Assembly (NCBI GenBank): GCA_028289585.1
Contig: JANQPI010000026.1
Coordinates: forward strand, 248,001-312,000
DNA: 64,000 nt
Source of the DNA: Candidatus Zixiibacteriota bacterium
GTDB lineage: Bacteria; Zixibacteria; MSB-5A5; GN15; FEB-12
Direction: 5' to 3'
Part shown: piece after piece, positions 5,004-9,173 of the stretch
Layout: each line of letters starts with the position of its first letter
How positions within the stretch are numbered: the first letter of the stretch is position 1
Notes under the pieces: generated by a model
Told to the model about the DNA's origin: nothing
The model's input: the letters and a program-made list of their open reading frames with translations, nothing else
Databases searched by the model: none
Position numbers and translations under genes: made by a program

Positions 5004-5243
5004 TTAATCAGTCCGACTCCACCGTTGATCGATAATGAAAACTACCTTCGGTTTGCACACCTTTTGTGCATTTCAGCGGCGTTGTCGGAGATGTCAAACA
5101 GATGCTAACTGGTTATCTAACAACGGTTTCTTTAGCGTACGCGCGGGTCGGTGAGAAATCGGAGCGGCCTGACTCCCTTGATCGTGATTTGGCACGTGAT
5201 CTGCAGTATCAATGGTGTCACACCAACGTGGAGGGCTATGCTT

Positions 5244-5894
5244 ATGCGGAAATGGATTCTCCGCACCATCGCCGTGGCCGTTGCCTTCGGGCTCGTCTGG
5301 CCGCCTCTCTCATGGGGCTTCGGCGCCTTTACCGTTACCCAGGCAACGATTACCCCGCAGCTGTCTGGGGACTACCGGGTCGAGATTTATGTCGACTGGG
5401 ATCGAACACCGATCTCGGCATTTACCACCGACCGGAGCTTCGATTCGCCCGAGTTCAGCCCAACCTGGCGCGGCAATGCCGATCCATACCTGACACGCTT
5501 TGCAACGAGCGGGTTCGGCTCGATGTCGAACTTCACGGCCGAATATGGCTACGATCGCTGGACCGATCCGACCATGGAGGCGCCGGAATGGCACTCCCAG
5601 GGTTATGGCCATTCACCCGGTTCGCTCGGCTCGTACTTCGCGTTCGATTTCAGCACCCCATTCCTGGTCGACGAGCCGATTAGCTTCGAGTACAGTGCCA
5701 TGATCGACTATGTCTCCCCGGTCGTCCGCTTCGATCAGAACGGCTATCCGGTTGAGCAATACGGCGATTGGCTGGGACAATCTGAATCGAGCGGCCAGTT
5801 CACGGCGACGGTGGTGCCTGAGCCGACCACCCTTGTTCTGGTGGGTCTGGGCTTGATGGGAGCCGGACTCTTGCGGAGGCGGATTTTGGCCTAA
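5244..5894 (+). CDS. PEP-CTERM sorting domain surface protein
   Basis: A 216-residue exported protein. The signal peptide is MRKWILRTIAVAVAFGLVWPPLSWG; the last 25 residues carry the PEP-CTERM tripartite signal, with VVPEPTTLVL, a hydrophobic segment and the basic end GAGLLRRRILA. Such proteins are recognised by an exosortase and released or anchored at the cell surface. The middle part (about 25-185) is aromatic and acidic and matches no family I can name. The ATG at 5244 is preferred because GGAGG at 5230-5234 is 9 nt away; the ATG at 5238 is only 3 nt away. No exosortase gene is in the window. A second PEP-CTERM protein is at 12832. Confidence 0.82.
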   Translation: MRKWILRTIAVAVAFGLVWPPLSWGFGAFTVTQATITPQLSGDYRVEIYVDWDRTPISAFTTDRSFDSPEFSPTWRGNADPYLTRFATSGFGSMSNFTAEYGYDRWTDPTMEAPEWHSQGYGHSPGSLGSYFAFDFSTPFLVDEPISFEYSAMIDYVSPVVRFDQNGYPVEQYGDWLGQSESSGQFTATVVPEPTTLVLVGLGLMGAGLLRRRILA

Positions 5895-5939: not shown

Positions 5940-6353
5940 ATGGAAAATAGGCTTTCCAGACTGATTCGTCGTTGTTGCGCGATGTTGGCTGTCACCGCCC
6001 TGGTAGTTACGTGGTTACCAGTCGTGCCGTTGGCCGCCTGCGAGGTAGCGATCTGCGACCTCAGTTCGCCGACGCCGGTCGAGGCGGGCTGCTGCTGCTG
6101 TGTTGAGAACGAATGCGCCTGCGACCCGGAGGTTAATCTCCCTCCACAGTTGATGGAGTGCTGTAACCTCACCTCGCCAGCTGTCGTTCCCGAGCGGGCT
6201 CCGCAGACGGACCAGACATCCGACGCTCCGGCAGCCAATGCTGCCGCGACGAGCCACCCCCTTGCCACCAGTGCCGGACCCTCTCCGGCTGTATCCGCGA
6301 GCGCTCCACCGGGCGTTCATTGCTGTATCTCCAGCACCATTCTCCTGATCTGA
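5940..6353 (+). CDS. Small exported cysteine-rich protein of unknown function
   Basis: A 137-residue protein I do not recognise. Residues 1-34 form a signal peptide (MENRLSRLIRR, then the hydrophobic AMLAVTALVVTWLPVVPLAA). The mature start is very rich in Cys: CEVAIC, then GCCCCVENECACDPE, then ECCN, with a final HCCISS near the C-terminus. The stretch between about 75 and 125 is low-complexity Ala/Pro/Ser/Thr. The ATG at 5940 has no Shine-Dalgarno but a good -10 box 7 nt upstream. It lies 83 nt before a second, more striking cysteine-rich exported gene, which suggests a shared role in metal or redox handling outside the cytoplasm; this is inference. An upstream in-frame start at 5898 is less likely because it would precede the promoter. 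Confidence 0.6.
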   Translation: MENRLSRLIRRCCAMLAVTALVVTWLPVVPLAACEVAICDLSSPTPVEAGCCCCVENECACDPEVNLPPQLMECCNLTSPAVVPERAPQTDQTSDAPAANAAATSHPLATSAGPSPAVSASAPPGVHCCISSTILLI

Positions 6354-6436
6354 TACCGAACCGACGCTTGGTTCTCCGGTTGCCTGCTCCACGCTAGTGG
6401 GCACGCAACACAGTTGTATCAGAAAGGAAATGATTC

Positions 6437-6799
6437 ATGTTGAAAAAGATGATTCTGATTGCTTTGCCGGTTCTCGGCATTGGCGCGCTTATCCTGGCGT
6501 TTGGATTCACGACGTCACCGGAAGCGGTCACGATAGCCGGCACGGGAACCGCGACCTGTTGCGCAACAACCGCTGCGACAACCACCGGTGCCTGCGAATG
6601 CGACGACTGCGATTGCTGCGATTGTGTCGATTGCACGTGTGTCGATTGCGACTGCTGCCCCTGTGGCACAACCGCTGTTGCCGCCACAGTGGTTACGGCG
6701 GTCGAAACGTCAAACCCAGCGTGCGACTGCACCGACTGCAAATGCTGTACATGTGACCCCTGCACCTGCGACAATTGCGAGTGTTGCGCCTGCGCCTAG
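6437..6799 (+). CDS. Membrane-anchored or exported protein with four 13-residue cysteine repeats
   Basis: A 120-residue protein with an N-terminal hydrophobic segment (LKKMILIALPVLGIGALILAFGF) and 26 cysteines after it. Two 24-residue blocks, about 52-75 and 94-117, have identical Cys spacing: CxCxxCxCCxCxxCxCxxCxCCxC. Each block is itself two units of CxCxxCxCCxC offset by 13 residues, so there are four copies. Between cysteines the residues are mostly Asp, Thr, Val and Pro. No His or Met ligands stand out. The density suggests a thiolate metal-cluster protein, functionally like metallothionein but outside the cytoplasm and with a spacing I do not recognise from known metallothioneins. The ATG follows AAAGGAA. 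A strong terminator at 6825 ends the unit. Function is unproven. Confidence 0.75.
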   Translation: MLKKMILIALPVLGIGALILAFGFTTSPEAVTIAGTGTATCCATTAATTTGACECDDCDCCDCVDCTCVDCDCCPCGTTAVAATVVTAVETSNPACDCTDCKCCTCDPCTCDNCECCACA

Positions 6800-6824
6800 G
6801 CGGTATCACTCAACCGTGACTCTG

Positions 6825-6853
6825 AAGAGGCTGCCCGACGGGCAGCCTCTTTG
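6825..6853 (+). terminator. Strong intrinsic terminator after the cysteine-repeat gene
   Basis: GAGGCTGCCC (6827-6836) and GGGCAGCCTC (6840-6849) form a 10-bp stem with loop GAC, extended by AA/TT, followed by a short T-run. The sequence TATATT begins immediately afterwards. Confidence 0.85.
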
Positions 6854-6866
6854 TATATTCGCCAGC

Positions 6867-7616
6867 ATGTTTACGTTCACTAACTCGGTGGCACTGATAA
6901 CGGGTGGATCACGCGGCATTGGTCGGGCTGTCGCCCGGGCGTTCACCAGCGCCGGCGGCACGGTGGCTATCAATTATCATCAAGATCATGAGGCAGCCGA
7001 GAGTGCAGTAGGGGATATCGTTGCCAACGGCGGGCGGGCACAGGCGTGGTCAGCCGATGTGGCAAACCGTTCAGCGGTTCGTGATATGGTGGCAGCTATT
7101 CGGGATACGTTCGGGCGGATCGACTACGTCGTGACCTCGGCCGGTATCTGGTCGGCCAACCGACTCGTCGAGTTTAACGAGGAGCGATTCGAGTCGACGC
7201 TTCGAACCAACATCCACGGTACGCTCTGGCCGATCCTCGAGGCACAATCGGCTCTTGCGGCGGCTCGGGGTGCAATCGTGACGATCGGATCAACCGCCGG
7301 CCAACGGGGTGAGGATGATTACTCCCCTTATGCGCTCAGCAAGGGCGGAGTGCATGCGCTGACAAAGTCACTTGCGGTCGAACTGGCTCCGGAGATCCGG
7401 GTCAACTGTGTCGCACCGGGCTGGGTCCGCACCGATATGACCGACGACGCCCTGACCGGCGAACGCGTATCCCGAGCACTTCGCGGAATTCCGCTTGGTC
7501 GCATTGCCGAGCCCGAAGATCTCGCTGGTCCGATTCTCTTTCTGCTGAGCGAGCACGCCCGGCACATTACCGGAGAAATCCTCAATGTGAACGGGGGCTC
7601 GGTACTGTGTGGGTAG
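6867..7616 (+). CDS. Short-chain dehydrogenase/reductase (FabG-like)
   Basis: A 249-residue classical SDR oxidoreductase. It has the nucleotide-binding TGGSRGIGRAVA at residues 12-23, the stabilising SAG (in VVTSAGIW), the catalytic Ser in TIGSTAG and the YxxxK motif in YSPYALSKGG. The C-terminal part reads LGRIAEPEDLAGPILFLLS...ITGEILNVNGGS, as in FabG-type 3-oxoacyl-ACP reductases. It is likely NADP(H)-dependent, but the substrate is not clear because there is no fatty-acid gene next to it. The ATG at 6867 is chosen by homology. It has no Shine-Dalgarno; TATATT (6854-6859) lies 7 nt upstream, so it may be leaderless, although no clear -35 box is seen because the region overlaps the terminator. 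Confidence 0.9.
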   Translation: MFTFTNSVALITGGSRGIGRAVARAFTSAGGTVAINYHQDHEAAESAVGDIVANGGRAQAWSADVANRSAVRDMVAAIRDTFGRIDYVVTSAGIWSANRLVEFNEERFESTLRTNIHGTLWPILEAQSALAAARGAIVTIGSTAGQRGEDDYSPYALSKGGVHALTKSLAVELAPEIRVNCVAPGWVRTDMTDDALTGERVSRALRGIPLGRIAEPEDLAGPILFLLSEHARHITGEILNVNGGSVLCG

Positions 7617-7820: not shown

Positions 7821-8015
7821 GCGCAATCTCCTTATCTACACCTTCTATACGGCAACCACCGGTCCGGTATTCATGATTTCTCGACCGATGTTCCGATTTG
7901 GGACGCGGGCCTTAACGTTGCGCTCACGTGGCCGACGTCGCATGTTCCGGGAGTATAAGGTGACGAAAAGCAGACCCGAGGAACAACCGGCACGGTCCGG
8001 TTGGGAGGATCTTCG

Positions 8016-9173
8016 ATGGCGGTGTTAATTCGCGAAGAACTGGAAACGCTAATCGGTCCGCAGGACGGTCCGTGCATTTCGATCTATCAGCCAACGCATC
8101 GCCGTGGCAAAGAGATCGATCAAGATCCGATCCGCTTCAAGAACCTGTTACGTGACGCCTCCGACACCCTTGAGCAACATGGACATCGAGGTGGCGATAT
8201 CTCGCGATGGCTCGAACCGGCCCGCAGGCGTCTCGATGATGGCGGATTCTGGCGGCATCAGTCGGACGGGTTGGCGGTGTTCATTACACCGGATTCTTAT
8301 CGCGAGTACCGTCTGCCGCTGAACTTCCCCGAACGCGCGGTGGTGGCTAATCGCTTCTATGTAAAGCCGCTTGTCCCGTTGATAACCGGAGACGGCCATT
8401 ACTACGTTCTGGTCTTCTCGCAGAAGGAGCTGCGGCTGCTCCATGGGTCTCGATTGGCGCTCGGAGAAATCGATCTTGGTGGTGTGCCAACGTCGCTCAC
8501 CCAGTTGTTGGCGAGCGAAGAGTATCAGAAGCAGCTGCAGTTTCACACCGGTACGCCCGGCCGGGGCGGTCAGCGCGATGCGGTACGTTTTGGCGCCGGA
8601 GATTCCGAGGCCGATCGTAAGCAAATCATTCTCAAGTATTTCCGTCGTATCGACGGTGCTCTGGTTGATCTGCTCCGTGAAGAGGCGGCACCTTTGGTGT
8701 TGGCCGGAGTCGAATATCTCTTTCCCCTTTTCCGTGAGGCGACGCGCTACCCGCACGTGCTCGAGACCACGATTCCCGGCAATCATGATGACACGTCGAC
8801 TGAAGAACTGCATCGATTGGCCTGGGAGCGGGTCAGCCCGCACTTCCGCGCTGTCGAATTGGAATCGTGGGAACGGTTCCAGGAATTAACGGGAACGGGT
8901 AGCAACCTTGCCACCAAGGAGTTTGACGAGGTCATCCGGGCGGCCATGACCGGCCGGATCGACACGCTGTTGGTTGCGCGTGGAGAGCAGCGCTGGGGGC
9001 GGTATGATCCAACGACCGACTCGGTGACCGTCGTCGATGAGCAGACGGCGGAATCGACCGACCTTCTCGACCTGGCGGTCGTTAACACGTTGACCAAGCG
9101 CGGCAAAGTGTATGTCATGGGAGCTGAGCGTTTCACACCCGATGCACCGGCCCGGGCAATTCTTCGCTACTAG
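8016..9173 (+). CDS. Bacterial archaeo-eukaryotic release factor-like (baeRF) protein
   Basis: A 385-residue soluble protein. The N-terminal PCISIYQPTHRRGKEIDQDPIRFKNLL and the later YYVLVFSQKELRLLHGS and AAPLVLAGVEYLFPLFREAT segments correspond to the baeRF families related to archaeal and eukaryotic release factor aRF1/eRF1, probably family 7. The C-terminal region (GRIDTLLVARGEQRWGRYDP, ALVDLLREE) resembles the L7Ae-like domain. These proteins are predicted to act at the ribosome, but their function is untested. The ATG at 8016 follows GGGAGG and is preferred to an in-frame ATG at 8001. The gene is followed by a lipoprotein gene after 24 nt, which may be cotranscribed. Confidence 0.72.
   Translation: MAVLIREELETLIGPQDGPCISIYQPTHRRGKEIDQDPIRFKNLLRDASDTLEQHGHRGGDISRWLEPARRRLDDGGFWRHQSDGLAVFITPDSYREYRLPLNFPERAVVANRFYVKPLVPLITGDGHYYVLVFSQKELRLLHGSRLALGEIDLGGVPTSLTQLLASEEYQKQLQFHTGTPGRGGQRDAVRFGAGDSEADRKQIILKYFRRIDGALVDLLREEAAPLVLAGVEYLFPLFREATRYPHVLETTIPGNHDDTSTEELHRLAWERVSPHFRAVELESWERFQELTGTGSNLATKEFDEVIRAAMTGRIDTLLVARGEQRWGRYDPTTDSVTVVDEQTAESTDLLDLAVVNTLTKRGKVYVMGAERFTPDAPARAILRY

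Follow-up and report, generated by a model that had tools for sequence, protein, structure and literature searches.

A Tandem Cysteine-Repeat Protein with Metallothionein-Like Features in Candidatus Zixiibacteriota and Its Scattered Bacterial Counterparts

The Repeat Gene and Its Neighborhood

The stretch of DNA analyzed here, hereafter the window, covers 64 kb of one contig of a Candidatus Zixiibacteriota genome (3.15 Mb, 55 contigs, 99.6% complete). It carries a gene for a small protein with regularly repeated cysteines, surrounded by the following features:

5151–5894: gene for a protein with a PEP-CTERM-like C-terminus (named by eye)
5940–6353, plus strand: gene for an exported-looking Cys-rich protein of 137 aa, with 14 Cys and a CCCC cluster (ORF and Cys-density scan)
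6437–6799, plus strand: gene for the repeated-Cys protein (ATG-initiated ORF, 120 aa, 26 Cys)
6437–6520, plus strand: hydrophobic N-terminus MLKKM-ILIALPVLGIGALILAFGF of the repeat protein, a putative export signal or membrane anchor (Kyte-Doolittle)
6593–6664, plus strand: Cys block 1, CECDDCDCCDC-VD-CTCVDCDCCPC, 12 Cys (motif positions)
6665–6721, plus strand: 19-residue linker GTTAVAATVVTAVETSNPA between the Cys blocks (sequence inspection)
6722–6793, plus strand: Cys block 2, CDCTDCKCCTC-DP-CTCDNCECCAC, 12 Cys (motif positions)
6824–6852, plus strand: strong RNA hairpin, stem of 13 bp, separating the repeat gene from the SDR gene (folding compared with shuffles)
6867–7616: gene for an SDR-type oxidoreductase, downstream of the repeat gene (named by eye)

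By ORF and motif mapping, we confirmed the four-fold cysteine repeat that the initial annotation of this DNA had described, with 26 cysteines in 120 residues and two 24-residue blocks. The motif CxCxxCxCCxC starts at 6593, 6632, 6722, and 6761 in the ORF, and no other copy exists in the six frames of the 64-kb window. These four units make up the two blocks, with a step of 39 nt (13 residues) inside each pair, and all 12 cysteine positions are identical between the blocks; a CC pair is also present at residues 41–42. When the mature part of the protein (80 aa, 26 Cys) was shuffled 200,000 times, at least one unit arose 10,097 times and four units never. When the codons of the two blocks are compared, the cysteine codons differ at 0, 0, and 4 of 12 places for codon positions 1, 2, and 3, respectively, all changes being synonymous, while the other codons differ at 6, 5, and 6 of 12. 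The thiols are conserved and the residues between them drift, which is the pattern expected from selection on the thiols.

It is very improbable that 6437–6799 is a low-complexity ORF due to chance or decay, with the true gene on the opposite strand or no gene at all. The opposite strand is open over 126 aa (6394–6774, minus strand), synonymous codon use favors the plus frame only weakly (0.046 vs. −0.027, two neighbor genes reaching 0.115 and 0.107), and the motif was found nowhere else among 132 genomes of the phylum; this reading is countered by the purely synonymous differences among the cysteine codons, by the presence in the plus frame of both an AAGGAA Shine-Dalgarno sequence 7 nt 5′ of the ATG and a hydrophobic N-terminus, and by a second exported-looking Cys-rich gene adjoining on the same strand.

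The composition of residues 29–120 is metallothionein-like (no His, no aromatic residue, 15 acidic residues, and 1 basic residue), and the repeat protein has the sequence features of metallothioneins in the broad sense: small size, dense cysteines arranged as CxC, CC, and CxxC, and a scarcity of aromatics and His. The membrane segment noted initially ahead of the Cys blocks is borne out by its hydropathy, the best 19-residue Kyte-Doolittle mean being 2.6, beginning at residue 6; it suggests export, either as a signal or as a membrane anchor. AlphaFold, run without an alignment, gave no confident fold (mean pLDDT 46). Downstream of the gene, the region 6800–6868 folds at −30.6 kcal/mol (z −4.34), a value that none of 200 shuffles equaled. 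The hairpin at 6824–6852 is probably the transcript end; a terminator scan made no call there, and its T run is weak.

The upstream gene 5940–6353, which the initial annotation of the repeat had passed over and which makes a gene pair of it, is separated from the repeat gene by 83 bp on the same strand, and its product also starts with a hydrophobic segment, placed behind arginines. Because these two genes contain the only ORF stretches of the whole window with at least nine Cys in 40 residues, their adjacency is notable. The upstream protein has one weak second match in its own genome, at a place that shows no Cys-rich gene. Homologs of the downstream SDR gene (candidate orthologs, with flanks of about 1.5 kb) were covered at 19 loci; one of these (L188) has a Cys-rich stretch nearby, which lacks the motif. 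Further along, the protein encoded at 8001–9173 resembles the AOC03_06830 family ribosome hibernation factor, under the cut-off of the model.

No metal gene was recognized by eye among the ORF translations beside the repeat gene, and the window contains no CueR-like operator at up to three mismatches. The genome encodes a single P1B ATPase of the copper type that exceeds the cut-off, about 105 kb away on the contig that contains the window; it encodes no CsoR-family repressor and no CueR above cut-off. Lacking both an upstream CueR-like operator and a CueR above cut-off in its genome, the window gene does not qualify as a member of a CueR regulon.

Occurrence of the Spacing in Other Bacteria

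No model of Pfam, NCBIfam, or PHROGs matched the repeat protein, and the metallothionein families of Pfam and NCBIfam (SmtA/BmtA type and others) gave no match at E-values up to 10. A protein search of plasmid and phage collections, with the low-complexity filter on, was equally negative, and a sequence search of the PDB returned weak, meaningless matches only. Within the phylum, the strict pattern (spacer codons not starting with T) occurs in 1 of 132 genomes, that of the window itself, and is absent from the other 131. A protein search yielded matches at E-values up to 1 in 15 of 61 genomes, those other than the protein itself being all weak (best 0.004). A looser motif search matched 30 of 80 genomes and was rejected, as the matches were mostly CTG/TTG runs, probably the antisense of Gln repeats; three loci (L019, L021, and L032) matched with letters other than such runs.

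Beyond the phylum, the eight-cysteine form CxCxxCxCCxCxxCxC was found at 38 loci of a species-level genome collection. By eye, 16 of these seemed plausible as genes of small or exported Cys-rich proteins and were kept; they come from Verrucomicrobia, Lentisphaerae, Riflebacteria, Proteobacteria, one Bacillota, one Berkelbacteria, and one entry labeled only "uncultured bacterium", along with a doubtful Streptomyces protein tail. The same inspection set aside the remaining 22, which lay in another frame, were of low complexity, or were unclear; two of them (L065 and L081) may be real genes. A second pattern form was present in 6 of 395 genomes from the family of the Lysobacter locus and in 8 of 288 genomes from the class of a Verrucomicrobia locus, three being new in each case, while a reversed control pattern gave none in either set. 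Pattern searching, a check of the kind suggested in the initial annotation, recovered the same spacing in scattered bacteria. The annotation had also named absence from all related genomes as a sign of a chance ORF, and this expectation is half borne out: the motif is confined to one genome in its phylum, yet distant lineages have it.

Fifteen loci of a viral collection carry the pattern, seven of which share one 36-residue frame. On one viral contig (L097, 6985–9624), an 880-aa phage tail protein contains an internal run of CDCCDCEPCDCC repeats of the same kind; it matches phrog_3558 at its N-terminus and adjoins Dit and the tape-measure protein. In Riflebacteria-type loci (L052, L080, and L085), we observed a long exported-looking protein in which a His-rich stretch and the same Cys module are followed by many KCGKC-like repeats and which is, judging from these sequences, a second exported Cys-rich type.

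The tandem 13-residue cysteine period is common to the window protein and the collected bacterial CxCCxCxxCxC-repeat proteins. Many of these relatives consist of a single 12-Cys domain, of which the window protein seems to be a duplicated version. In an alignment of 18 proteins (excluding L052, L068, L080, L082, L085, and L097), every invariant column is a cysteine, which, together with the synonymous-only changes of the cysteine codons, supports the selection on the thiols put forward initially. The non-Cys residues of the window protein agree with the position preferences of the relatives no better than chance (permutation p 0.19); homology is therefore unproven, and convergence is possible.

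Gene order bears on this question in the eight loci taken from Verrucomicrobia and Lentisphaerae (L050, L051, L163, L164, L165, L166, L168, and L169). In five of them, the motif gene is directly preceded by a gene for a short exported-looking Cys-rich protein, these proteins forming one family in L050, L163, and L168 and another in L164 and L165. The motif proteins have a hydrophobic N-terminus in 7 of the 8 loci (15-residue mean 1.9–2.6), the protein of L169, as delimited, being without one. The window pair follows the same plan, an exported-looking Cys-rich gene and then the repeat gene, and its upstream protein has no detectable homology to the Verrucomicrobia companions. There is slightly less than an even chance that the window protein is unrelated to the distant proteins with its spacing, whose copper context would then be uninformative about it. 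The nonsignificant similarity beyond the cysteines (p 0.19) and the patchy distribution favor such convergence, against which stand the shared 13-residue period, the same 12-Cys block size in many members, and the common plan with an exported Cys-rich companion upstream; convergence would be compatible with the metallothionein-like reading of the window protein developed below.

Some of these loci show another short exported-looking protein, of the form CPVM...YVCCGGCV, whose gene precedes that of the companion (L163 4546–4806, L050 5903–6148, and L168 4665–4862). It has no convincing Pfam or NCBIfam match and recurs in a copper-like cassette of Verrucomicrobia. Locus L168 also encodes a CsoR-family repressor, for which the best NCBIfam model is the copper sensor RicR, below cut-off.

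CueR-Type Regulators beside Proteobacterial Motif Genes

CueR is a sensor of Cu(I), Ag(I), and Au(I). In six of the seven proteobacterial loci taken (L073, L158, L159, L160, L161, L162, and L167), a gene for a MerR-family regulator is divergent from the motif gene and adjoins it; L162 is the exception, with about 4.4 kb between the two. The regulator of L167 matches in two pieces in different frames and is perhaps a broken gene. All four regulators scored (L159, L161, L073, and L162) exceed the NCBIfam cut-off for CueR, and the ZntR, MerR, and CadR models stay well under their cut-offs for the same proteins. Proteins with the same spacing and no hydrophobic N-terminus occur beside CueR-type regulators.

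A dyad, TTGACCTTgCCAnnGGGGCAAG, lies upstream of the proteobacterial motif genes, degraded in some. As the operator consensus had first been derived from the loci themselves, we repeated the search with published operators, over 8–11 kb for each locus and with five simple block shuffles per locus as controls. When the CueR operator of Pseudomonas aeruginosa mexPQ served as outside query (PMC12833586), all seven loci had their best site immediately 5′ of the motif gene. In six, this site is oriented toward the motif gene at a distance of 65–76 bp from its start; in L159, it is oriented toward the regulator, and the runner-up points to the motif gene at 72 bp. The score of L167 (15) does not exceed that of the shuffles (16). 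The copZ2 operator gave a less uniform orientation: the top site is directed toward the motif gene in three of the seven loci, in another three it sits on the opposite strand of that intergenic region, and L162 shows a tie between the region upstream of the motif gene and that upstream of the regulator itself. Both the operator form and the match to the CueR equivalog model fit what is described for the CueR regulons of gamma-proteobacteria in the available sections of two reports (PMC1526738 and PMC12833586); among the CueR targets given there, copZ1, copZ2, mexPQ-opmE, copA1, copA, cueO, and PA3515-3519, none is by name a Cys-repeat protein.

In two loci, a DUF3703 (PF12487) gene directly follows the Cys-repeat gene (L162 5731–6054 and L167 792–1178). 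Since the two DUF3703 proteins occupy the same place and are only about 38% identical, a role in copper or soft-metal handling is suggested; a text search covering part of the literature found no mention of DUF3703.

By analogy, the proximity of distant same-spacing genes to CueR-type regulators and CueR-like operators supports the metallothionein-like role initially proposed for the window protein. It also bears on another reading, in which the protein would be exported and rich in disulfides, serving as a structural, surface, or binding protein, with its cysteines oxidized in the envelope and holding no metal. We consider this improbable: the exported-looking N-terminus, the disulfides that an oxidizing envelope could form, the even number of cysteines, and the absence of any recognized metal gene beside the repeat gene and of a copper regulator above cut-off in the genome all agree with it, but same-spacing proteins devoid of a hydrophobic N-terminus adjoin CueR-type regulators, and on general knowledge vicinal CC pairs and a CxC every few residues fit metal–thiolate clusters better.

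Relation to Known Metallothioneins and Proposed Role

The initial annotation knew of no described metallothionein with this spacing, a claim that is too broad with regard to the core of the pattern. In the part of a report on Tetrahymena metallothioneins available to us, CXCXXCXCCK is the 10-residue building block of subfamily 7a (PMC1808422), and its spacing equals that of residues 1–9 in the window unit. Proteins of subfamily 7a resemble the window protein in being modular repetitions, unusually long and Cys-rich, but combine CXCXXCXCCK, which closes each module, with C2X6 units (PMC1808422). The window protein, in contrast, is bacterial and exported-looking and consists only of tandem CxCxxCxCCxC with a 13-residue period. 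It contains the CxCxxCxCC spacing four times, followed by D, P, T, or A and never by K, and inspection of its cysteine positions revealed none of the C2X6 motifs or CCC clusters of subfamily 7a. Neither the full CXCXXCXCCXC pattern nor its tandem 13-residue arrangement was found in a text search covering part of the literature, and a search of similar coverage for metallothioneins in connection with CueR, export, and diversity found no description of a bacterial class like the window protein. The core CxCxxCxCC motif was therefore already known from Tetrahymena, while the tandem bacterial arrangement is apparently undescribed and may represent a distinct class.

To our knowledge, the bacterial metallothioneins described so far act in the cytoplasm. 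According to the portion available of a review (PMC7558416), few of them have been described; SmtA and MymT are, like the window protein, small and Cys-rich, and both hold metals by thiolates, MymT serving copper resistance. SmtA has a zinc-finger fold (PMC7558416), whereas residues 29–120 of the window protein contain no His. The same source presents Csp1 as an exported protein with many cysteines that stores Cu(I), which recalls the many cysteines and exported look of the window protein; Csp1 carries a Tat signal and has a pre-formed four-helix bundle (PMC7558416), unlike the dense tandem cysteine repeats of the window protein, for which no confident fold is predicted (pLDDT 46) and no Pfam model matches.

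We regard it as fairly probable that the repeat gene encodes an exported, two-domain, metallothionein-like thiolate protein for Cu(I) or soft metals, for which we infer both metal binding and export. The N-terminal hydrophobic segment would carry the protein across or into the inner membrane; outside, each 12-Cys block would wrap a metal–thiolate cluster, and the acidic residues between the cysteines would keep the protein soluble. The likely ligands would be Cu(I) and other soft metals and, by the stoichiometries of other metallothioneins, the capacity of a 12-Cys block might be about 6–8 Cu(I) or 4 divalent ions. Together with the upstream CCCC protein, the repeat protein may buffer metal in the cell envelope or sequester it there. 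We likewise infer the identity of the metal, the cooperation of the two genes, and common descent with the distant same-spacing proteins.

A protein of the same kind might bind Zn/Cd, Hg, or another soft metal instead of Cu, which we find somewhat unlikely. The related Tetrahymena subfamily 7a, built on CXCXXCXCCK, is induced more by Cd than by Cu, as far as the sections available indicate (PMC1808422), and the window's own genome has no copper sensor above cut-off, facts that suit a metal other than Cu. The four proteobacterial regulators examined speak against it, as they score as CueR, a sensor of Cu(I), Ag(I), and Au(I), and not as ZntR, CadR, or MerR.

On a larger scale, and with slightly more doubt than confidence, we propose that a bacterial metallothionein class built on the 13-residue CxCCxCxxCxC module is thinly scattered among bacteria, comprising cytoplasmic forms in CueR regulons and exported forms with an exported Cys-rich partner. 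The window protein would be one of the exported forms, with a duplicated 12-Cys domain, acting as an envelope copper store or trap. Such a class would have its own spacing and no entry in the family libraries searched; some lineages would link it to CueR, and in others its members would look exported. If it is real, it would add to the known means by which bacteria hold copper and would make it testable whether a thiolate-cluster protein stays reduced and metal-loaded in the cell envelope.
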